64,000 nt of DNA, taken from contig JAMYWO010000075.1 in assembly GCA_024220525.1 (NCBI GenBank), positions 22,738 to 86,737 of the forward strand, in the 5' to 3' direction. Below are positions 7,578 to 57,384 of this stretch, in pieces (the first letter of the stretch is position 1; every line of letters starts with the position of its first letter). The notes beneath the pieces are model-generated. The model was not told the origin of the DNA. It worked only from the letters and a program-made list of their open reading frames with translations, and searched no databases. The stretch comes from Cochliopodium minus. Its lineage: Eukaryota; Discosea; Himatismenida; Cochliopodiidae. Both the position numbers and the translations under genes were made by a program.

Positions 7578-10500
7578 TTAATTTTTGTCATTTTGGGTTG
7601 GTTCCACTTCCTATTAATAAAAAAAAGTTTAATAAAAAAGATATAAAAAGTATAAGAATAGAAATCATACCCTTACGATAAGTTTGTCACCAACACCCGT
7701 ATCGAACCATTTGTCAATATTAAAGAACCAGGTATCACTTGTTCTCAAACTTGTGACGGAGACAGACTTGCAATACCAATTAGGGTCTGTTAAACCAACT
7801 CTCTTGTTATCATGACCAATTCTTATCTTTGTGATTTCACCCAAATCAGGAAATTCTACAGTGAAACGATCAGTTTTTGCTCTTTCAAAGTTGTTTTCTT
7901 CATTGTCCAAAATGGTCTTCTCTGTGTTGTTTCTTGTACCGAATATAGTGATGAAGACATTAGCATTGGTACTTGCTCCAAACACATCTCCAGTGATAAC
8001 TTCAACAAGATATTTAGAAACGTTGGAAACCTTTTCACCATCCTTAGCAGGGAAGATATCTCTCACAAGTTTCTTTTCTCCCTTATCGGTAGCAAGCCAT
8101 TGTTGGCAAGAAAAGGTAGTTTCGATACCAGTGGTTTCATTTCTAATTACGACCTTGTCCAAGAACCAATCGGATGAAAGACCTCTGTTATCGTGACCAA
8201 TGTTAATCTTGGTGAGCTTCCCGAGATCAACAGCCATGTGTTCAAACTCTTCTACAGTACCTCTTTCCAAATGACTGTTGTTCAATTTGAATTGTCCAGT
8301 ATCTCCCTTCTCTCCAAATAAAGTCATGAAGACATTAGCTCTAGTACCTGCACTGTTACAATCTCCGGTGGAAATAATTACAGTATACATTGTTTCAGGC
8401 AAGTATGAAACACCATCTTGATCTTTTGCAGGCAATTCTACTTGAATTCTCTTATCACCTTCACTCTTGTCCAACCAACGACCAGCCAAGAAATACCAGC
8501 TCTTTCCGGTTGTCTCATTTTGGATTTGGACTTTATCAAGGAACCACCCTGCACGGAAACCTTTGTCATCGTGTCCAATTCTCATTTTGGTCAAGTTTCC
8601 TAAATCAGCAGCCTCAACACCAAATACATCAGTCTTTCCTTGTTCGAATGTATCCTTTCCTTCTAATTTTCTGATTCCAGTATCTCCCTTGTCACCGTAA
8701 ATGACAATAGAAACGTTTGCGTTTGTTCCTTTTTAATAAAAAAATTTTAAAATTGAAAAATTTGATTTTGAAAAGTATGTTTTTTTACCTGCTCCCTTTT
8801 TGTCTCCAGTTGTAACCAATACTTTGTAGCTTGTCAAAGGTGGAAGAACAGTAGCATCTTCCATTGAAGCAATCAATTCTCTCTCGATCAAACCATCTCC
8901 TTCATCAGTAGCCAACCACTTACCACACAAGAAAAAGTAGTTTTGGCCAGTCTTCAAGTTGGTAACCAAAACTTTATCAAGAAGCCATCCAGGTCCAAAA
9001 CCCTTGTTATCATGCCCAATTCTGATCTTTTTGATGGTACCAATATCGATAGAATCAACACCAAATTGACTAGTAACACCTCTTTCGTAAGAATCTTTTC
9101 CTCCATCCAATTTTTGAACACCAGTCTTCCCAAGATCTCCATAAATTTCGATGTAGACGTTTGCATCAGTACCAGCTCCACGTCTGTCTCCAGTAATGGT
9201 GGTGACTTTGTATGTGATAAGAGGAACCAATGCTTCTCCATCTTTGTTCTTTGCTTCCAATTCAATCTCAATCTTTTTGTCGCCTTCTTTAGAATCCAAC
9301 CAACGTCCAGCTGTGAAATACCATTCTTTTCCAGTAGTGCTTGATCTGATGGAAATTCTGTCCAAAAACCATCCTGGTCCAAATCCACTGTTATCATGTC
9401 CTACTCTTATTTTCTTGAGATCACCAAGATCAATTGCGGCAATGGTAAATTCATCAATGATGTTTCTTTCAAATTGTCCATCCAAAATTCTTGCTCCGGT
9501 ATCTCCAGATTCTCCATAAATCGTCAAGCTTACTTTTGCATTTGTACCTGCTCCCCTTACATCAGCAGTCGATACTTTGACTTGATAATTTACTTCTGGC
9601 AAGCAGCTCTTTCCGTCTTCAGTTTGTGTTGCGAGTTCAATTAAAAGATTTTCTTTTTCTAACCATTTTCCGCACAAAAAGTAATTGTTGGTGTTGTTGC
9701 TCATATCTGTTACAATCACTTTATCCAAGAACCATGCAGCTCCAACTCCTTTGTTGTCATGTCCCACTTGAATCTTTATAATTTTTCCGAGATCAACCGA
9801 GTCGAATCCAAATGTATCAGTCTTTCCTCTTTCAAAGTTGTTTTCACTGTTATCAAGATTTCTTCTTCCACTGTTTCCATTTTCTCCATGAACATCAATG
9901 AATACATTAGCGTCAGTTCCTGCACCTCTTCTATCTCCAGTAACAACGACAATTTGATAAGTTTTAAGAGGAAGTAACGGTTTTCCTTCTTGATCTGATG
10001 CAGAAAATTCTCTTGTGAGGTTATTCTTGTCAATCCATAATTCCCCAACAATTGGGAAGAATACTACTTTTTGGATTGATTCATCAAGAATTTCTACTTT
10101 TTCAGGCAACCATGCTGCTCCTATTCCTTTGTTATCGTGGCGCAATCTAATCTTGGTTAAGTTTCCAAGGCAAACACATTGGGTAGAAAACACATCAACT
10201 TTATTTCTTTCAAAGTTATTTTGAGCATTGTCCAATTTGATTTCTGCACTTTCTCCTTGATCTCCTGTAATTACAAGGAATACATTAGCATCTGTACCTG
10301 CTCCAGGTCTATCTGCAGTTTTGATGGTGATTTTGTAGTCAATGAGTGGTTGGTAAGTCTTTGCATCTTGTAAAGTCGCTTTGATTTCCCTTTTGATAAG
10401 TTTATCATCTTCGTTGTCAGCCAACCAACGACCACACAAGAAGAACCATTGTTGTCCTCTTCCATTCTTGATTGTAACTTTATCCAAGAACCATCCTGCA

Positions 10501-13500
10501 CCAATTCCCTTGTTATCATGTCCAATTTCCAAACGGGTCAAATCTCCAAGATCAACACATTCAACAGAAAACACATCAGTTTGGCCTCTTTCAAATCCTC
10601 CTCTAGTTGTTTCCAATTTACGTTTTCCTGAATCTCCGTTTTCACCATAAACAATGATAGAAATATTTGCGTTGGTTCCTTTTTCAAAAAGTTTTTAAAA
10701 ATTAAAATTATTAGAGTAAAAAAAAAAAAGTTATTACCTGCTCCAAATCTGTCTCCAGTAGTAACAGAAACAGTATAGTTTTGATATGGAGCAACGCTGA
10801 ATCCAGAAGGATCTGTTGCAATGAGTTCTCTTGAAATCAATCCATCTTCTTCATCTCTTGCAAGCCAATGTCCACAACCAAAGAAGATTTTGTTGTTCTT
10901 ATCATCTTCAATAGTTACTGATTCCAAGAACCATGCAGCTCCAAGACCACTATCATCGTGTTCGATTCTTATCTTTTTGATTTCCCCAAGTTCTACTGCC
11001 TCTACTCCAAATACATCCTCTTTCTTTCTTTCAAAGTTGTTTCCAGGTCCGTCCAAAGTACGTTTACCAGTATCCCCTTTTTCTCCGTAAATAGTAATGG
11101 AGACGTTTGCATCAGTTCCAGCTCCCCATCTGTCACCAGTTTTAACGATTACTTTGTACTTAACGAGAGGAACTGTGCATACTCCATCCTCGTTAGATGC
11201 AGGAATTTCTCTTTCAATTTGTCTGTCATCTTCGTCAGTAGCCAACCATTTTCCGCACAAGAAGTAGTAATCTTTTTGATCTTTTTCGTTGTGAATGATG
11301 ATCTTGTCCAAGAACCATCCAGGACCAATTCCACTGTTATCATGACGAATTCTGATTTTTGTTGGAGTTCCAACATCAACACAAACGAGTCCAAACAAAT
11401 CTTCTTTGTTTCTTTCAAAATTGTTGAGTTTGTTGTCCAATACTTTTTCTCCACTCTTTCCTTTATCTCCATACAATTCGATGAATACATTTGCGTCTGT
11501 ACCTGCTCCTCTTCTATCACCTGTTTTCACTCTAACTTTGTATGTAACTTCTGGTAAGTAGGTAATTGCATCTTCTGGTGCTGGAACTCCTTCAACAACA
11601 ATCTTTGCGTCTTCTTCATTCAAGTCTAACCATCTTCCGAACAAGAAGAAGTATGTTTGTCCTGTTCCTGCTTGTAAAACAACTTTGTCCAAGAACCATC
11701 CTGCTGCAATTCCTTTGTTGTCATGTCCAATTCTCAATTTTGTTATTTTTCCAAGATCCAACATCTCAAAGTTAAAGTGAGAAACGCTTCCTCTTTCGAA
11801 TGATCCTGATCTTGCGTCCAAACGACGATCTCCACTGTCTCCACTTTCTCCGTAAATTGTTACACTAACGTTTGCACTTGTTCCTGCTCCTCTTCTGTCT
11901 CCAGTAAATACAGAAACTTTATAGTCTACCCAAGGCAATGAAGTCATCTTGTCTTCTAAGGATGCACCCAATTCTCTTACAGTTTGGAAGTCATCTTCAT
12001 TGGTATCCAACCAACGTTGGCAAACAAAGTACCATGGTGCGTCTTCTTTATCTCCAGTCATTGGTGTGATGATTACTTTCTCAAGGAACCAACCAGCTCC
12101 AGCTCCTTTAGAGTGATGTCCAATACGAATTTTCTTCAATTCCCCAAGATCATACAAGCTAAGTTCAAATTCATCAGTTTGTGCTCTTTCAAAGTTATTT
12201 CCTTTTGAATCCAATGAAGTCTCTCTTGTTGCTCCATTAGCTCCGGTTATTACAATGAATACATTAGCATCAGTTCCTATTTTTAACAAGAAAGTGTATT
12301 AGAATTTAAAAAACATTAATTACGATTTGAAAGAGATAATATCAAAGATATTCAATTTGAATTAATTGATGAATAATTTACCTGCTCCTGGAACATCTCC
12401 TGTGATTGTTTTAATTTTGTATTGTTTGGTTGGGATTGGAATTTCTTTATCTTCCAAAGAACATCCCAATTCTCTTTCGATCAATCCATCATCTTCTTTA
12501 GTATCTAACCATTTATTGCAAACAAAGTAATTAAAGATGTTTCTCTTTACATCTTTCACAATGATCTTGTCCAAGAACCATCCAGCTGCAAGACCCTTGT
12601 TATCATGTCTAATTCTAGCTTTCTTTAATTCTCCCAAATCAACAATTTCAAATCCAAATATATCCTTCTTTCCTCTTTCAAAATTGTTTTGACTATTATC
12701 AAGTTTTCTTTCTCCAGAATCTCCATTGGCACCGTACAAAGTGAGAAAGACGTTTGCATCAGTACCTGCTCCTCTTCTATCACCAGTGAATACTTGAACT
12801 TCATAGTAGACCAAAGGCAAAGATGCTTGACCATCTTTGTCTGCTACTTCAATAACTTTTTCCAAGCCGTGATCAGTATCGATCCATTGTCCAGACAAAA
12901 AGAAGAAATCAAGAGCAAGATCCTCTGCTTTAACAACAACTTTGTCCAAGAACCATGCTGATCCGATACCTTTTCCATCGTGTCCAATGAGGATTCTTTT
13001 TAATTTTCCTAAAGATACCCCAAAGTATTCAAAGACATCCTTTTTATTTCTTTCAAAGTTGTTCTGGTTGTTATCAAGGCTTATCAAACCAGTGTCTCCA
13101 TGTTCTCCAACCAACTTGATAAATACATTTGCGTCAGTACCTGCCCCTCTTCTATCTCCAGTGTAAACAGTGATTTGGTATCTAGTTTCAGGAGCATAAG
13201 TCTTTCCATCTTGGTTTGTTGATGCAATTTCTCTTTCAATTTTTTCATCTTCTTCATTATCTGCCAACCAACGTCCACACAAAAAGAAGTAAGTTTTTTG
13301 TTCTTTTTCGTCTTTGGCAATAACTTTGTCCAAGAACCATCCCGCTCCAACTCCTTTGTTATCATGTCCTATTCTGATCTTGGTAACATTTCCGAGATGT
13401 CCACATTCAATACTGTAATCAAATTGGGTTCCTCTCTCGAAAGATCCATGCTTTGCATCAATCTTGAATACATCGGAATTTCCTTTTTCACCATACAATT

Positions 13501-16500
13501 GAAGATGAATTTGAGCATTTGTTCCTGCAAATCTTCTGTCACCAGTAAAGATGGACAGATTGTAAGTTGTTAAAGGTGGGCAACCATTAATATCTTTTTC
13601 TGCTGCATCTATTTCTCTGATCAAAAGACCATCATCCTCATTCAAGTCAAACCAACGTCCAGATGGGAAAAACCATTCTTTTGCTCCATTTTCGCAATAA
13701 ACAACAACTTTGTCTAACATCCATCCTGCTCCAATTCCTTTATTGTCATGTCCGATTCTGATCTTCTTCAAATTACCCAAATCAACCATTTGGAATCCAA
13801 AGATATCAAGTTGACCTCTTTCAAAGTTATTCAAAGAGTTATCAAGTTTAAGATCATCTGATTCTCCTTTGTCTCCAAACAAGTGGATGAAAACATTTGC
13901 ATCAGTACCTGCTCCTCTTCTGTTTGCAGTGTAAACAGAGATTTTATATCTTGTCAATGGTGCGTATGTTTCTCCATTCTGGTTGGTAGCTGGAATTTCT
14001 CTTACGATTTGTTTATCTCCTGATGATTTGTCCAACCATTTTCCGCACAAAAAGAATGTTTGTGCTTTTGTCACTGTATTAGTAATAATGACTTTGTCCA
14101 AAAACCAAGCAGCTCCAATACCACTATCATCATGACCAATTCTAATCTTTTGGAGACTTCCAAGTTCTACTGCTTCTACTCCAAACTCATCAGTTTGATT
14201 TCTCTCAAAGTTATTTCCAGGACCATCCAAAACACGTTTACCAGTGTCTCCCTTATCTCCGTAGATGGTAATAGATACATTTGCATCAGTTCCTGCTCCT
14301 CTTCTGTCTCCAGTCAAGACTTCAACCTTGTATGTGATCAAAGGAAGTGTGCATACTCCATTTTCGTTTGATGCAGGTATTTCTCTTACGATTTGGTTGT
14401 CATCATCATGTGTTGAAAACCATTTTCCACAGAGGAAGAAATAAGTCTTGTTGTCTCTTTCCGAAAATATTTCCACTTTATCAAGAAACCATGCAGCTCC
14501 TAATCCTTTGTTATCATGACCAATCACTATTTTGTTCAATTCTCCAAGATAGTCACATTCTATTCCGAATACATCAGCTTTGTTTCTTTCAAAGTTATTT
14601 TGAGAGTTGTCAAGGAAAGTTAAGTTGCTCTTTCCATTTTGACCATATAGAGTGATGAATACGTTTGCATCAGTTCCAGCACCTCTTCTATCTCCAGTTC
14701 TTACTGTAATTTGGTAACTTGCAATATTCAAAACCTTAAAGTCCTCTCCAACAGGTGCCAATTCTCTTCTAATCAAACCATCTCCTTCATCTTTTGCAAG
14801 CCAGTTGTTGCATCCAAAAGTCCAAGATTTGCCTTCACCACTGAGAATGACAACTTTATTTAAGAACCATCCCGCACCAACCCCCTTGTTGTCATGCCCA
14901 ATTTCGATTCTCTTCAAACTTCCGAGATCAACAGATTGAAACTCAAACTTATCAGTTCTACCTCTTTCAAAGTTGTTTCTACTGTTCTCCAATTGAATTG
15001 TACCACTGTCTCCATGTTCACCATAAGCGATCAAGTGGACATTTGCATCAGTTCCAGCACCCCTTCTGTCTCCAGTGTAAACAGTAATATGATAGGTGAT
15101 TAATGGAGCTGCTCTCTTATTTTCTTGGTGAACTGGAATTTCTCTGACCAATTTACCATCATCTTCATTGGTTGCAAACCATCTTCCACATGGGAAAAAG
15201 AATTTTTCATCAGTCTTTCCATTGGTTATTACAACTGTATCTAAGAACCATCCAGGTCCAAAACCACTATTATCATGACCAATTCTGATTTTTTGTATAG
15301 CACCAAGATCAACAGTTTCAACACCTTTAATTAATGTGTAAATAATATTTAAATTGATTATCTTTTTTTACCAAATACATCAGTATGATTTCTTTCAAAG
15401 TCATTTGCACTGCTATCTAATGGACGGTTTCCAGTGTCTCCCTTTTCACCGTAAATGCAGATGTTAACATTAGCATCGGTACCAGCTCCTCTTCTATCTC
15501 CAGTGAATACTTCAATTTTGTATGTTACCATCTTGTCATAACTTGCTCTATCAGATCCTTCTGCAGGAATTTCTCTTACAATTTGTCTGTCATCTTCATC
15601 AGTTGCCAACCAACGTCCACAAATAAAGAAGTATTCTCCTCCGGTAGTCTCATTTCTTACAACTACTTTGTCCAAGAACCACCCTGGACCAAACCCACTG
15701 TTATCATGACGGATACGGATGTATTCGAGAGTTCCAAGAGAGATGCAAGAAATACCAAACACGTCTATTTGTGCTCTCTCAAAGTTGTTTGCAGAAGTAT
15801 CAAGAATTTTTTCACCACTGTTAGCGAGGTTTCCTTCAGAGTCTTTTCCATACAAAGTGATGAATACATTTGCATCAGTACCTAATGAAATTAAATTGAT
15901 TAGTTTTGATGATTAATGAAAATGATTTGATCAAGATTAGGTTATATGTTTGAAATTAAATAGATTTGAATTTACCTGCTCCTCTTCTATCTCCAGTATG
16001 TACTTTTACAGTATATTGATTCATAGGCAAATAAGCAACTCCATCAGTTTCTTTTGGAAAGAGTTCTCTTTGGAGATGTCCATCTTCCTCATCAGTTGCC
16101 AACCACTTTCCACACAAAAAGTATTTGATTTCCCCAGTAGCCATGTTGGTCATGATGATTTTATCAAGGAACCATCCTGGTGCAAATCCAGTATTATCAT
16201 GACTAACTTGAAGTTTCTTGATGACACCAAGATCAATTGCTTCGATACCTGCTTCCACTGTTTGATTTCTTTCAAATTTTGCAGAATCAATCAATGTGCT
16301 TGCAGATCTTCCATCCTCAGAATGTAAAGTACAAGTGACCTTTGCGTTTGTACCTGCACCAGGTCTATCTCCAGTAAAGATCTTCAATTTGTATACAACC
16401 ACTTTTGGAATGACAATTTCACCTTCATGAGGGGTCAACTCTTTTCTGATTCCAGATTCGGTATCCAACCAACTTGCTGCAACAAAGTTCCACTTTTCAT

Positions 16501-19500
16501 CTCTGTAGTTCAAAATTTGAACCCAACCGAGATACCAATTAGGGCTGAAACCAGAGTTATCATGTCCAATCGAAATTTTTTGTAATAAACCGATATCTTC
16601 AGAAGTTCTTACAGTGAATTCATCTTTTCTGTTTCTTCTAAAGTTACGAGGATCATTATCGAGGATGATCTCTTGTGAAACTCCCTCATCTCCGTGTAAA
16701 ACAATGGATACTGCAGCATCACAACCAGCTCCTCTAAGATCACCTGTTTGAACAACGATTCTCCAAGTGCAAATTCTGAGTTTTCTTTCTTCTTCTTCTT
16801 TCTTCTTCAATAACTCTTCATTTTCCAATTTGCTGTTTTCCAATCGTTCGTTCAAATTCTTGTTGTGTTCTTCCAACACTCTGGAGTTTTCTTTTGCTTC
16901 TTTCAAATGAGATTCGTAGTCTTGCATTCCTCTGTGAAGACGTTTTATTTCCTCTGCTGCTTTTTCTCTGTCTTCTTTGCTTCTGTTCAAATCAGAAGTA
17001 AATGAAGATAATTTCTGTTCATATAGAAGACTGGTTTTCTCGAGATGTTTGTTAAGTTTTTCCAATTTCTTTTCCAAATCAATGATGGTTTTCTTGTTCT
17101 TTTCATTTTCTTGAGAAATTCTTTGGAGTTCTTCGGTATTTGCTCCGCCAGAAAGTGCTTCTTTTTTGAGTTTATAGATCAAGTGATTTTCATCAATACC
17201 CCAAATGTTATGTTTAGAAGATGCAATGTAGCTCAATTTACCATTAATTGCTTGCCATGCACTCTCATCATTGTTCCATCTTGATACTTTTCCTGTTTTA
17301 GAAAGAACCCAAGCATTGTCTCCGTCTTCAACAGTTATCAAACTGATTTGTCCTGGAGGTTGTGCTCTTTGTTTCCAATCTCCATCAGTCCAACTATAAA
17401 CAGAGTTTCCTGTAAGAGTGAGACCCCAAATTGTTCCATCAGGAGATGCATCAATTGTTTTCATGTAAGGTGGTGGCTTCAATGAAAATTGTACTCCATT
17501 CCATTGAAAGACTCTTCCAGATGTATCAACACCCCAAACAACATCTTTGCTTGCACAAGTGATTTGTTTAAATTTGATCTCTTCTTCACCATCATGTTTA
17601 ACCCATTCATCTCCTTTCAATTGGTAAGCTCTGCCACTCTTGCTTACTCCCCAAATGCTCCCATCGTTACCTACACTCACATCAACCAAAGATCCTTGAA
17701 CTTGAACCCAAGGGAGTTTTCCTTCAGTGGTTGGAACATAATGATAGATCTTTCCAGAAGCAATACCATAGATGTAATCTTGATTTCCTACACTGATGCT
17801 GCTCAATTTACCTGGAATCAAATCCCAAAAAGACATATCAGTATTTGGTTCATCTGAATTTGTTAAACTTTCGAAATCTTCAACATTATGTGGTCTATCA
17901 GTGACATGCAAGTTTCCATTCACATCAATTCCTACGATATGATCATTGCTGTAAACAGAAATGGATACAAATTTGTGAGGATTCTCAACTTCAATCCATT
18001 CTTTCTTTTTTGAATCAAAATTTACCAATTTATCATCTTGAGATAAAGCCCATACTGAATCGTTTGTTCCCAATGCGATATATTTGAGAGGAGAAGAGAA
18101 TGGTTGTTCGATCCACTTGGTATTGATCAAAGAAAGAGCAGTTCCTTTCTCATCAATCGCCCAGAATTGATTATCCCTACCCACTGCTGCAGTTATAAGA
18201 ACAGGAGATGCAGGAAGGTAATCCCAAGCACTACCAGTCCAACGCAAAGCTTTTCCTTCAACATTGATTACAACCGCATAAGATCCTCCGTTAGAAATGT
18301 GTTTGAATATACCAGATTTTTGTTGCCACAACTTTCTTGCAGATAACCATTGAAATACACCTCCCTTCTTATCGAGAGCCCAAACAAAATCTTTAGATGC
18401 AGCGATCACTCTGAAATCTTTTCCATTTTGTTGGATAGGGTTGTCCAATTTCTTATCAGCACTGCTCGTAGTGTATGGAACTCCTTCAGGAGAAAGAGAC
18501 CATATTTGGCAACTTGTTGCAAGAGATACGCTCGACCATTTGTTACTATCAGAGATCCATCCGAAATTGGTAACCTCATGTTTCTCTTCTACAGGTTGTT
18601 CCTCGATACTGTAGACATATACTTCTCCTTTTGTATCGATACCCCAATAATGAGAATTAGAATGTACAGAGATGTATTTCAAGTTATAATGATTATCTAT
18701 CTTTTGGAAAGTCTTCTCTGAGCAATTCCATTTGTAAAGGATATTTTCATCATTCTCTACAGAGATACCAAAAATATTGTTTGATCTTCCACAAGAAATC
18801 TGATTCAATTTGGGTGCATCAGAGATCAATTTGAAGAAATTATTCTCCCAATGATAAACCAATCCAGCACCATTCACAGCCCATACATCACCATCTGATC
18901 CAACAGAGATATCAGAGAAAGCTCCGCTCATTTTGTCCCAATTTCCACCATTCCAACAGAAAGTATATCCTTCCTTTGAGATACCCCAAACATTTGCACC
19001 TCCAACGGATAATTTCTTCAAATTACCATTTCTTCTGATCCATGAATCAGTAGATCTATAATAGACTTTACCATCTACATCAATAGCCCATACTTCACCA
19101 CCACTGCAACTCACGCTGACCATTCTGCTATCAGTGATTTCCCAACTGTTTTGTTTTTCATCATAATAGATCACTTCATCGTTCTCTGTGATTGCCCATG
19201 CATGATTTCTTCCTGCAACATCCAAATTCTTGATTTTGAATTGTTTTGGAGTGAGATTATTCCATCCAGGCAAATAGAGAACATCATGAAAGACAAATAC
19301 ATTTCCTGATGCATCGAGCCCAACAAGATAATCATCAGATGTACTAATACTCACAATATTATGAGGATTTGGTTTCTCTTCGAATGTTGCCTCATTTCTC
19401 TTGAACAATTTGCCTGATTCATCGATCGCCCATACAAATGATTTGCTTACCATCGAAATTTCTTTGAAGGATCCTTCAATCGATACCCAACTATCATTCT

Positions 19501-19999
19501 CAAAACTTTTTATTGCTCCTTCATTTGTAATTGCCCATACACTTCCATCATCTCCAACAGTTAAAGATTTGAAATTTGATCCTGGTTGTTTCACCCATTT
19601 TTCATCAATGAATTTATATGGTGTGCCATTATTTAATACCCATGTAGTCTCTCCTACTTCAACAAAACTTGCCTTTCCTGGGAGTTTTTCCCATTTATCA
19701 TTTCTCCATGCATATAATATATCTTTTGGTGTCACTCCAAATATTCCAGCTTTACCTGTTGCTATTCTTTTTAATTGTCCTGGAATTTCTGTCCATCTCA
19801 CACCATTCCATCTTGAAATTTTTCCATCTCCATCTATTGCCCATATATCATTGGCATTTATCACGGAGATCTAAATTGTAAAGCAGAAATTTATAAATGA
19901 GTGAATATAAAAAAAAAAATATTTATTTTAAAATTTGAAGTTTATTCAAAGGAAGATTACTTGTGTAAAGGAATTTCCAACTAATTGACTCCAAGACAT
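7578..19999 (-). CDS. Giant tectonin-coiled coil-PLAT array protein, about 3,968 aa
   Basis: Eight exons (19999-19961, 19870-15976, 15881-15372, 15324-12382, 12276-10738, 10678-8789, 8728-7671, 7610-7578) sum to 11,907 nt, exactly in frame. The start is MSWSQLVGNSFTQ; there is no signal peptide, so the protein is probably cytosolic. Residues about 14-920 hold some 24 tectonin cores (VWAID.DGKV with W at repeat ends), enough for four six-bladed propellers. Residues 920-1030 are a charged coiled coil. The rest is 23 PLAT/LH2 domains, each with TGDRRGAGTDANV, FERG, GHDNKGxGxGWFLDKV and FFLCGKWL. The last repeat ends at once in a short tail (EVEPTQNDKN). Tectonin domains bind lipids or glycans, and PLAT domains bind membranes or lipid-enzyme partners, so a membrane or phagosome scaffold is a reasonable inference. 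Four introns share one site inside the repeats. Confidence 0.92.
7671..16770 (-). repeat. PLAT/LH2 domain array, 23 units
   Basis: Repeat units of about 125 residues, each encoded by about 375-400 bp, run from CTWRIVVQTGDLRGAG to the gene end. I count 23 by the GHDN/GWFLDK core. Most cores read GHDNKG or GHDNSG; variants include HHSKGAG (repeat 12), EHDDSG (15) and the end repeat GHDNKRVGLTDPNW, which lacks the usual GWFL. The first repeat is also divergent (NWYLGWV). The units are diverged at the DNA level, so this is an old array rather than a recent satellite. Confidence 0.92.
17150..19870 (-). repeat. Tectonin repeat array, about 24 units
   Basis: Within the giant gene, a motif of about 37 residues recurs with hydrophobic-W-G/A-I/V-D/S followed by G.(V/L) and a closing W (for example NVWGISKEGY, SIWGVSKSGRAY, VVWGVDTSGRVFQW, TIWGLTLTGNSVYSW). 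I count 24 cores from DIWAIDGDG to NIWGIDENH. A few cores are degenerate (YAVVINVEG, YLVGLDASG). Six-bladed tectonin propellers are known, so 24 would fit four propellers. The count is by eye. Confidence 0.85.
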
Positions 20000-20464: not shown

Positions 20465-23400
20465 ATGGAAGAAACAGTTGGAGATAATTTCTCTAAGAAA
20501 ATAATAGAGAAATTAAACATAAAGATATTGGGTTTGAAGAACGATTTATCACAAGAAAAAGAAAGGTAAATATAATATTTTTGAATTTGCCATTTATTTT
20601 GAATATAATTTAATTATCCTTAAAGATACAACACAAATACCAAAATATTGAATAATGAAGTTGATCAACTGAGAAATGAGCTAAAGAGATTAACGAAAGA
20701 AAATAGTCTGTTAATAAGGGAGAATCAGACATTGAAGGAACAAAATGTGAAATTGCAAAAGAATCAAAATCATTTGAAAATCGAAAGGAAGATTTATAAC
20801 GAAGATGAGGCAATAATAATGATACAAAGTCTAATAAGGTGAGGAGAATATATATTTCAAAATTACTCTTTTAAATTCGTATTATATAAAAGAACATTCT
20901 TGAATAAATCGAGATATAAATTAATAAAGAAGAGAAGGAATGTCGCAAGAGAATTCCAAACAACGGAAAAAACATATATCTATTACATTAACACAACAGT
21001 GGTCTTATATTACAATGATTTGAAGAAAATTGAAAATTCAAAGTTAGGTGTAGCGCCACATGAGGTAAAATAATTATTATCTTGATTAATTTAATTAAAA
21101 TCCCAAATTTAGATCAATATGATTTTCGGAAATATAGAAATTCTAGATAGTAAGTTTTTTTATTTAAAAATATTTATCTTTATTTATCTTTAACTAAAGT
21201 ACTCCATAAGCCTATGTGGAAGAATTTAGAAAAGAGAATCAAAGATTGGAGCAGTTTCTCAAATATAGCAGACTTGATCTATGATTTTTTGAGCGATCAA
21301 GAAGTGATCAGTGCGTATACAGAATACATCAACAGAGTATTAATTATTTTCTCTTTTTTTTAAAAATTTTTTGTTCATTTTTAATTAGTATGATGACTCC
21401 ATTGCTCTCCATGAAAAACTTTTGCTTTCAAACAAAAATTGGTAAGAAATTAATTCTAAATTAATTTATACAGTTTATTTAATTGTTGATACCAGGGCGA
21501 ATTATATTGATGAAAAACAAGAGAATGAACTAAGTCATGGTTTAAGAATCGAATCTTATTTAGTGGCTCCTGTTCAGCGTATACCAGTAAGTTCTTTTCA
21601 AAAAAATTCTTATGATTAAACATTCATTATTTAATGAAAGAGGTATGTATTGCTTCTTCAAGAACTCTTGAAAGTTACTCCTCCTTCTCATACTGACTAT
21701 GTAAATGTAAAGAAAGCACTCGAAAAGGCAAAAACGGTTGCAGAAAAAGTAAATTCTTCTAAAGCTGTTTCCAACCACTTCAAAGAACTCCAAAAAATTA
21801 ACGCAAATATTGAATTCACAAAACTTTCAGATGAAGAGGAAGAAGAACAAGTTCTCACATTAATTTCAAACGAGAGGAGATTTATTACACAAGTTGATTG
21901 CAAAGTAATTTTCATTTTTTTATTTTATTTTTTTATACTGAAAATTTTATTCATTTTAATTAAAATTAGGTTGATGGGGTTGATAGAATGGTTTATATTT
22001 TCAACGATTCTCTAGTTTGCCTGTCATACCCCGTTTCAAAATTTACTTCAACAAAATCTGCAAGAAGAAACTCACTGAGAGGAAAGGTGGGAATGGGAAA
22101 ATATATATTTTTATGGAAAGCGGAGTTAGCTAACTCGTACTTGAGAACAAGCGAAGTGGACAACAGTTCTATTTTCACCATTGTGGAAAACAAGAGAATT
22201 AATATTTATCCTTTTTCGAAGAAAAAAACTTTCACCGTCCAAATTGACAAGAACAACAAAGAAAATAATGTTGATTGGTGGTTTCAAACTTGGAATGAAT
22301 TAACTAGACAGCTCAAAATTGAATTCAACGGCTTGGTTTTTTTATATAAAAATATTAAATAATGCTTTTTCTTTATGCTTTTTTTTTTTAATAGTTCAGA
22401 TCTGTTGATATTGCTTCCCATTTCATAGCAAATCTTTTGAATGTAATAATTTTTATTTTAGAAATTTTTTTTTCTCATTTTTATTTCAAAGGATAATGAT
22501 TGGAAAATCCTAAAAACAGTGAGTACCAGTATCAAAATATCTAGCGGAGATTACGTAATGTGCCCTGAAAAGAAAGTTAATGCAGATTCTTCCTTTTTTC
22601 TGATAGAAAGTGGATCATTTTGTGTAGAAAGGAACATAGGAAACGTCACATACATCATCAACTCTCAACTTAGCAATTCTCAATTCTTTGGGGAGTTTAA
22701 ATATTTGAACGATGAATGTTTTGAATCTGTTAGGGCTACAAGTGATTCATATGTTCATTGTTTTCAAAAAGATAAACTCAACAAACTTTTGAAATCTGAT
22801 CCTAATTTGGGTAAAGTTTATTTTTTTTTTTTGAAAATATTTAATTTCTTATTATTTCAATAGCAAATAGATGGTTCTTGTTATTATGTACAATAATCTC
22901 AAAAAGATTTAAATCTGCATCAAAAATCACGCAAAGGGCAATGACTAGACAAGAAGAAAAGCCAGAAACACCCATGAGCCGTCTGAGCATAAACATATCA
23001 AAGACACCAGAGCTGGATACCAAATACACCAGTTTGAGCACTCGAAAATCAACTCCAATGAAAAGAAAGACAAGGGATAAATCACAAGGAAAAGACTTTA
23101 AAATGTGCGAGATATTCAATATTCCTTTCAATGTTATTGTCAAAGAGTGTGAATGTATCTACAAAAAGACAACTTCTTCAAAGGTAAGAGGGAACATTTA
23201 TTTGTTTAGACAGTATCTTTGCTTTTACTCCAAAATTCTCGGAAGAAAAACAATCATTGTGATCCCTTTTGTGACAGTGGATAGCATGCCAGTAGCTAAC
23301 AAAAGTTCTTTCATGGTTGTTCTAAAAAGCCAAGTGAACCATATGTTCGAGCTTGTTGGTTCTGATGAAACCGAGAACATTCAACTTTTCAAGAGTTACT

Positions 23401-23885
23401 TTGAAAGAACGACTTCCAATAAAGAAACATTAGGAAGACAAAGTAATTTGATGTTCGGCCAAGATGAAAAAACTTTCGACTTGAAAGAAAGCGACTGGGA
23501 AATTGTCTTTAGCTGTGCCAAAGTGATGGTTTTCAAAACAGATGAGATCATCATCAAAAAAGGAGATTATTATCAACGTCTTTACTTCATTTTGAGAGGA
23601 TCTTGTAGAGTGGAAGACTTTGATGAACAATCAGATAAAGCCAAATTGTTAAGCACGATGACCAAAGATGATGTTTTTGGAGATCTCTCTTTTCTCTTTG
23701 GTGGCTCTGCTGTTGCTAATGTCACTGCTTCTGAAGATTTGGAGCTTTATTGTTGGGAGAAGAAATCTCTTGAGCAGATTTTTGTCAAGCATCCTCATTT
23801 GAGCCCAAAGTTCTACCAAGACATGTCTATTCGTATCAGTCAAAGATGGATGAAATTTTTGGATCAAACATTGAAAAATTTATAA
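20465..23885 (+). CDS. RhoGEF with IQ motif, DH-PH and CNB-GRAM-CNB tail
   Basis: About ten introns join a protein of roughly 900 residues from the ATG at 20465. Order: N-terminal coiled coil; an IQ-like helix (AIIMIQSLIR...KKRRNVAREF); a DH domain beginning EFQTTEKTYIYYINT and carrying the signature PVQRIPRYVLLLQELLK (about 21,560-21,670); a PH domain (about 21,840-22,340); a cyclic-nucleotide-binding fold (22,490-22,870); a GRAM domain (FNIPFNVIVKECECIYKK...RGNIYLFRQYLCFYS, 23,110-23,400); and a second CNB domain (23,480-23,850, with FGDLSFLFGGSAVANVTA). It should activate a Rho/Rac GTPase. The CNB-GRAM-CNB order is known from the dictyostelid cGMP-binding proteins GbpC and GbpD, which carry RasGEF rather than RhoGEF domains. 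Whether either CNB binds cAMP or cGMP is open. The second keeps FGDLSFL and an alanine where the phosphate-binding arginine is usual. Confidence 0.88.
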
Positions 23886-55229: not shown

Positions 55230-55561
55230 AAAAAAAACTGTTTATTGTTTAGTGTAGATTAAAATTTTTGCTTATTTACTTAGTTGAAAAGAAATTTCAG
55301 ATCAAAGGTAACAACTCAAAATTTATTTTCGATTCAAATAAAAATATATATTTATATCGTGGAAGATAAAAACCTCCAAAAACTCCTCTCATAAAAAATT
55401 CAAAATACAAATATTCTTATTAGTTTCAGATAACCTCAAATTTTTGAAATACTTGACAAATTGGAAAAACGGGTAAAATAAATTCTTTTAGGTGAATTCA
55501 ATGCGGGCACTTTTTAATAACTAATTTGGAAAAAAATTAAAAAAAAAATTTGAAAGAGAAA

Positions 55562-57384
55562 ATGGATAAAGAAAAATTGGATACTCCAAATAAATCACAG
55601 AAGAGAAAATTGGTGACAGACAAGGTCAAAAAAGCTTGTTTTAATTGCAAGAAATCACATCGAAAATGTGATAATCATAGACCCTGTGAAAACTGCAAAA
55701 AGAATAATTTGAGATGTTATGATACAAGGAAAAAATTGCCTCATGAGCTCTCTCAATTCAAAAATAATATCAACAATCCAAATTTGAAAAATAATCTTCA
55801 AATCCATCCTAATAACAATCTCAATCTCACCATTCAAAATAATTCAAATGGAAATCCATCAATCCCACAGATGATCAAGTATCCATCCAATAATTTTCCT
55901 CCAAACACAAATAAAAATTATCCTCCAAGCAAATACGTTCCAAAAAAGCAAATGATAAAGAACATTCCTCCTTCAACTAAAAATTTGACACCTCCTATCA
56001 AATTCCCTACCAAAATAAATTCCGATTTCAACATTTATCCATTCAATCCTTCACAATACCATTCACTATATCATATCAATCAGATGGGGAACAACAATAC
56101 AAATTCAAATGTAAAAAATCAAGATAATATAACGATAATAAATAAAAACATTAATATCCATGTTCATCCGATCATTTCAAATTCCAATCCCAATAAATCT
56201 TCCCAATCATTAGGCTTTGTTAATTCTATCATCGATTTGAAAGAGAATAATCACAAAACAAAGCCTCTAGATGAAGAAATTAACCTCAATCAAGATTTCT
56301 TTGACAACAATCTCAATATCGATCCATTCGAGATATTGGCCAATATGGATGATAATATCGAGATTCCTTTCTTGTTGAACGATTGTGATACCTCCATCAT
56401 CTCGCAATATGATTCTAATTTAGAAAACAATAACACAAATCTATCTGCATCGCCTTCTCCACATCGAGAGAGATCTTCATCACCAGTGAGGTTCAAAGTG
56501 AAAGATATGATCATCAAACCCATCGATGAGAATGAATTCATGAACAACATGATGGAGAATGTGGAGATGAAAGGGTTTCTCAATGACCACGATAATCAAT
56601 ATAATCTCAAAGATGAATTTAACAGTGATATTAACAATCTTCAAATGGATTTCAATATTTGCAATAATAATAATATTAATACAAATATATTTGACACTTT
56701 CTCTGAAAATAATAATGTTGATATATTCCAAGATGATGATTTCTTTTCCAATCCTAAAAAACCAAAGATCGTTCCACAGAATATAGAGTACAACTTTACT
56801 TTTCCAAACATTCCACCAGTTTTTATTCCTTTCACAGCATTACGAGCCTCTTCAATGTTTTGTGCCGCCTCTTTCCAAAAAGGTAAAAAAAACTTATTAT
56901 TTTTCTTTCTTAAAACTTTTCTTTCAAAATGAAATCAATTAAACAATTTTTCATTTAGGATTGTCTGATGATGAGTATCATCCAAAAAATTTTTTCATAG
57001 AAGATATTTCTCCTGGCATGGCTCTTTCCATGGGTTATACTCCCGAAAAATTGATTAAAAAAAAGACTCCAATAGCAATAGATTATACACCACAACAACT
57101 CAAAAGTTACTCAAAGGTTACAAAAAAAATTTTACCAAGAAAATTTAAAATTTAAATTTTTTAAAAAGACAATGTGCGAACTTAGCCAAGAGAAAACAAG
57201 ATATTTCAATCTTCATACAGTTTTGCAACATAAAACGGGATTGTATGTATCTGTAGAGATGACTTGTGCTCTGTTTAGCGAAAACGGAAAACCTTCTTTG
57301 ATGTTTACATTTGTAAAGGGATCAAGAATTTTGGAATCAGTATCTCCTGAAAGATTGAATCCTACTTTCGAGATTATTGAATGA
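55562..57384 (+). CDS. Zn2Cys6 zinc-cluster transcription factor with C-terminal PAS-like domain
   Basis: The ATG at 55562 gives MDKEKLDTPNKSQKRKLV, then the zinc cluster ACFNCKKSHRKCDNHRPC with ENCKKNNLRC: spacing CX2CX6CX5CX2CX6C, the binuclear-cluster rule. A long Asn/Pro-rich middle follows (to about 56,780), with a Ser/Pro patch SPSPHRERSSSPVRF that looks phosphorylatable. The C terminus over three exons (introns about 56883-56958 and 57118-57171) reads FFIEDISPGMALSMGYTPEK and TGLYVSVEMTCALFSENGKP, which fits a PAS fold. Among fungi the Rds2/Ert1 group has a zinc cluster plus PAS, and dictyostelids have related proteins, so a nuclear regulator is likely. About 565 residues. Confidence 0.85.

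Follow-up and report, generated by a model that had tools for sequence, protein, structure and literature searches.

The 64,000-nucleotide (nt) stretch of DNA analysed here, referred to as the window, carries on its minus strand what is almost certainly a single gene, encoding a protein of 3,968 residues that joins four tectonin propellers, a coiled coil and an array of 23 PLAT domains (Table 1). The rebuilt gene comprises eight exons totalling 11,907 nt, contains no N, and shows a stop codon only at its terminus, which bears out the preliminary description of a frame closing over eight exons. All seven introns have GT-AG boundaries and a length of 47-105 nt; their GC content is 12-19% (0.12-0.19), compared with 33-39% across nine blocks of coding sequence, throughout which the GC content at third codon positions is 0.22-0.35. 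The host of the gene is an AT-rich, probably single-celled eukaryote. The PLAT units crossed by introns 2 to 6 (P3, P4, P12, P16 and P21) align over their full length with the other units and without gaps at the junctions, so that the splice sites of these five introns are strongly checked. All five lie in phase 1, and introns 2, 4, 5 and 6 (15882-15975, 12277-12381, 10679-10737 and 8729-8788) follow the same residues, the GAG of GAGT, in four different PLATs; the shared position and phase look as if PLAT units had been copied together with their introns.

Table 1. Features of the tectonin-PLAT gene, in window coordinates.
Feature	Position	Strand	Basis or remark
Whole gene, 3,968-residue protein	7578..19999	(-)	Closed frame, GT-AG introns, single stop
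Exons 1 to 8	19999-19961, 19870-15976, 15881-15372, 15324-12382, 12276-10738, 10678-8789, 8728-7671, 7610-7578	(-)	
Exon 1, MSWSQLVGNSFTQ	19961..19999	(-)	Would add closing strand of propeller 1, by analogy with the propeller 4 model
Exon 2, 3,895 nt open throughout	15976..19870	(-)	Most of four propellers, coil, PLAT 1-2, beginning of PLAT 3
Propeller 1, 6 tectonin repeats, contains intron 1	19274..19999	(-)	Sequence repeats
Propeller 2, 6 tectonin repeats	18590..19264	(-)	Sequence repeats
Propeller 3, 6 tectonin repeats	17885..18574	(-)	Sequence repeats
Propeller 4, 6 tectonin repeats	17135..17842	(-)	Structure modelled
Coiled coil, residues 930-1044	16778..17122	(-)	No proline, one glycine, periodicity of 3.5
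23 PLAT domains, residues 1048-3968, 6 introns	7581..16768	(-)	Pfam profile and unit profile
PLAT 6-7, modelled pair	13952..14719	(-)	Structure model

The tectonin arm is recognized both by a family profile and by its own repeats. The Pfam Tectonin family (PF19193) matches exon 2 with an E-value of 4.7e-89. A repeat profile applied at a threshold of at least 15 bits finds 24 tectonin units, where the preliminary description had given about 24 cores; no unit reached this score in 300 shuffles (best 6.1 bits), and none was found in the PLAT part or the coil. When profiles were cross-trained between the two halves of the arm, one test recovered 11 of 12 units (7.3-28.4 bits) plus a piece of 0.2 bits, and the other recovered all 12 (8.4-27.5 bits). 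The alignment used for folding excluded propeller 1, which is in no model; propeller 4, the one modelled, is predicted to adopt a six-bladed propeller with the Tectonin fold. Comparison of this predicted structure using VIA-align 2 places lectins nearest among the matches listed, namely Tectonin 2 (5fsb, 5fsc) and fish-egg lectin (4ruq, 4rus). In the propeller 4 model the first strand (residues 6-12) precedes the first repeat, and by analogy the strand needed to close propeller 1 could come from exon 1. The arm as a whole (17135-19870, minus strand) also weakly matches Toxoplasma TLAP2 in the PDB (E 5.1e-5), with no single stretch significant, and the propeller family Hyd_WA exceeds its cut-off on exon 2; we do not take the latter as a further domain.

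The PLAT profile (PF01477) gives 24 pieces, each above the curated cut-off, of which 22 are single domains and two are the halves of one domain split by intron 3. The profile search that the preliminary description had proposed for PLAT agrees with the 23 PLAT domains it had counted. A profile built from the units of the array recovers all 23 of these same units, which are 28-64% identical in pairwise comparison (mean 46%). The modelled pair, PLAT 6-7, is predicted to form C2-like beta-sandwiches, the PLAT/LH2 fold, and the best PDB match for the PLAT sequence is polycystin-1. Matches to DUF7755 at or above the cut-off fall inside the PLAT stretches of exons 4-7, and those to FPP, PAS, ATS3, Exonuc_VII_S and CW_7 lie below their cut-offs; none was taken as a further domain.

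Between the two arms, the hydrophobicity of the predicted coil has a sharp period of 3.5 residues with a power of 107, whereas shuffled sequences averaged 9.4 and none of 2000 equalled the observed value; the coiled coil proposed earlier is upheld by this pattern. The junction, comprising the last propeller, the coil, the first two PLATs and the start of the third, lies inside the single open 3,895-nt exon, which rules out separate genes as the likeliest reading. That two genes have been read as one, with the tectonin and PLAT parts on separate transcripts, would fit a genome in which PLAT-only arrays and other tectonin genes are found apart. However, the nearest methionine upstream of PLAT 1, residue 995, is 53 residues away and within the coil, whereas the PLAT-only relative (contigs C331 and C9) seems by eye to start with a methionine in the first strand of its first PLAT. 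A divergent ATG on the opposite strand, found by eye roughly 470 bases before the gene begins, also speaks against two genes. We consider the two-gene explanation very improbable, and the presence of propellers, coil and PLAT array in one gene nearly certain. On C331 a same-strand reading frame stops about 80 bases before the start of the PLAT-only gene, so that no tectonin arm fits upstream of it, if this frame is a gene.

Profile searches of the same genome (44.65 Mb in 598 contigs; match counts are lower bounds) returned at least 58 PLAT pieces on at least three contigs (C75, C9 and C331) and at least 12 Tectonin pieces on at least five (C75, C293, C451, C595 and C142). Among these matches, only C75, the contig of the gene studied here, carries both; the Tectonin profile gave no match on C9 or C331, and the PLAT profile none on C293. 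The arrays on C331 and C9 share paired PLAT units with the present gene. Of 15 paralog units placed in a tree, seven have one-to-one partners with support of 0.95-1.0 (P7, P8, P10, P11 and P12 with the decayed copy on C9 described below; P17 and P18 with C331), and the remaining eight have no supported one-to-one partner. A long array therefore seems, from these sequences, to predate the split of the paralogs; a recent local expansion of the entire array is ruled out by the spread of unit identities together with the seven partnered units. At 224-230 kb of C9 (L021, L022) lies a decayed PLAT array with stop codons, the pieces of which best match P5 to P15, mostly at about 50-80% identity. The ratio of nonsynonymous to synonymous substitution rates was 0.14-0.49 over eight domain pairs (stop codons within the C9 pieces for P7 and P14 were skipped, and P5, P6, P9, P13, P15 and P16 left out), which suggests that purifying selection has acted on one or both members of every pair.

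For the other arm, the C293 gene is collinear with propellers 1-2 over three tectonin stretches (30-39% identity), after which comes an ankyrin match. Its Tectonin and ankyrin matches (L025, 3003-4541 and 5333-5626, minus strand) share one frame, and a further tectonin exon lies upstream. Since both arms have relatives of their own elsewhere in this genome, the gene appears to have arisen by joining two modules that also persist separately; alternatively, the relatives may have lost one arm. Beyond this genome, PLAT and tectonin queries found no relative among viral contigs, and a single PLAT exon found none among bacterial and archaeal genomes, a collection searched with PLAT queries only. 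A PLAT alignment query of the latter returned one Saprospiraceae contig, on which four tandem frames (L029, 1625-5172, plus strand) each have, by eye, a signal-like start and two PLAT-like repeats. Elsewhere in the window, a plus-strand frame at 22845-23885 encodes GRAM and cyclic-nucleotide-binding domains, and another at 55541-56932 combines a fungal-type Zn2Cys6 cluster match with Asn-rich tracts.

No stretch of 19 residues anywhere in the protein has a mean Kyte-Doolittle value above 1.25, and the N-terminal start is, as judged by eye only, unlike a signal peptide; the protein is therefore probably cytosolic, in line with the preliminary description. The best-supported reading, to which we assign a probability of roughly 0.5, is a cytosolic protein, linked through its coil, that would act as a multivalent membrane scaffold or tether and offer its propellers to a second ligand. 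This proposal builds on what sequence and models together indicate: one frame, the domain counts, the folds of one propeller and one PLAT pair, the heptad pattern and the separate relatives. Dimerization through the coil would give about eight propellers and 46 PLAT domains per molecule. The PLAT arm may lie along a phospholipid membrane, with calcium assisting contact through the 13 or 14 PLATs that have the loop pattern, while the propellers would hold a glycan or protein and so crosslink or scaffold the membrane surface. Judged from sequence, the membrane or glycan binding and the dimerization suggested in the preliminary description are plausible. Peptides of two human tectonin repeats are reported to bind lipopolysaccharide (PMC2707011). 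A more specific form of this proposal is a new class of dimeric membrane-to-glycan (or membrane-to-surface) tether, a LOXHD1-like array fused to a tectonin arm, with some 46 PLATs, many of them calcium-tuned, on the membrane and about eight lectin propellers directed at a second surface; we regard it as doubtful.

Lipoxygenase PLAT domains are described as helping membrane binding, often with calcium, in reviews that treat the role of calcium as variable or unclear (PMC10889196, PMC7436259). Two points weigh against the scaffold or tether reading. According to one of these reviews calcium regulation of PLAT domains is seemingly not ubiquitous, and according to another it needs clarifying what calcium contributes to the binding of membranes (PMC7436259, PMC10889196). 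In addition, a calcium-loop-like pattern is present in about 14 of the 23 PLATs (13-14) and is missing from nine (P1, P2, P9, P13, P16 and P19-P22), so that some stretches of the array may act as spacers. The absence of the pattern from these nine would also suit a LOXHD1-like role as a scaffold for proteins alone, in which PLATs and propellers bind proteins, and lipid and sugar are irrelevant. Propellers often bind proteins, and LOXHD1 itself is a precedent, as discussed below; however, the loop pattern is retained in the other units despite a mean identity of 46%, and the nearest listed propeller structures are lectins. We therefore hold a pure protein scaffold to be somewhat unlikely.

The closeness of Tectonin 2 and fish-egg lectin among the listed folds is likewise compatible with a cytosolic sensor of damaged phagosomes or bacteria, functioning like TECPR1 or galectin-8, in which the propellers would read exposed glycans and the PLAT arm would grip the membrane. 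The genome contains ATG8 family matches on two contigs, and the tectonin protein TECPR1 is reported to sense damaged membranes; it does so, however, by detecting sphingomyelin via DysF and not via its propellers (PMC10476172). A Pfam scan of exons 2-7 (exons 1 and 8, of 13 and 10 residues, were left out) found no DysF or PH family at E-values up to 0.1, and Pex24p, used in place of DysF to search the genome, yielded a single match that fell below the cut-off. We consider such a sensor quite improbable.

Every component of the protein is of a known kind, and the combination was not found in the searches made. In the open-access literature, searched for tectonin with PLAT domain and for pairs of tectonin, LOXHD1 and domain architecture, and with eukaryotic protein and genome collections outside its scope, we found no description of a tectonin-PLAT fusion; the earlier statement that no such protein had been described stands within that literature only. 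If the host is a protist, as the genome style suggests, the gene is an example of a very long PLAT array in a non-animal lineage. The fused gene, the PLAT-only arrays and the other tectonin genes of one genome form a natural set for comparing a PLAT array alone with one aimed by another module.

Comparison with known systems sets the protein apart from each of them. Laccaria bicolor Tectonin 2, the entries of which contain O-methylated or alkylated sugars, is a chain of about 227 residues with one propeller and neither coil nor PLAT, and fish-egg lectin, which is secreted, has only one propeller compared with the four seen here. TECPR2 has WD40 repeats beside its tectonin repeats; no WD40 family was found at E-values up to 0.1 in the scan of exons 2-7. 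TECPR1 resembles the present protein in having tectonin repeats within a cytosolic protein, but it carries DysF and PH domains and an ATG5-interacting region (PMC10476172), and an orthologue of TECPR1 is ruled out by the scan described above. The closest parallel to the other arm is a long head-to-tail PLAT array, best known from LOXHD1 in hair-cell stereocilia. The 15 PLAT repeats of LOXHD1 are reported to be needed for coupling a mechanosensitive channel subunit to the tip link (PMC8051682, PMC10802736), and a preprint reports its co-precipitation with TMC1, CIB2, LHFPL5 and PCDH15 (PMC10802736). Its mode of action is unsettled, a question to which an array tied to lectin-like propellers is relevant. 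While LOXHD1 is made of PLAT repeats, residues 1-1047 of the 3,968 here are tectonin and coil, and the present protein has 23 PLATs rather than 15, together with four propellers and a coil.
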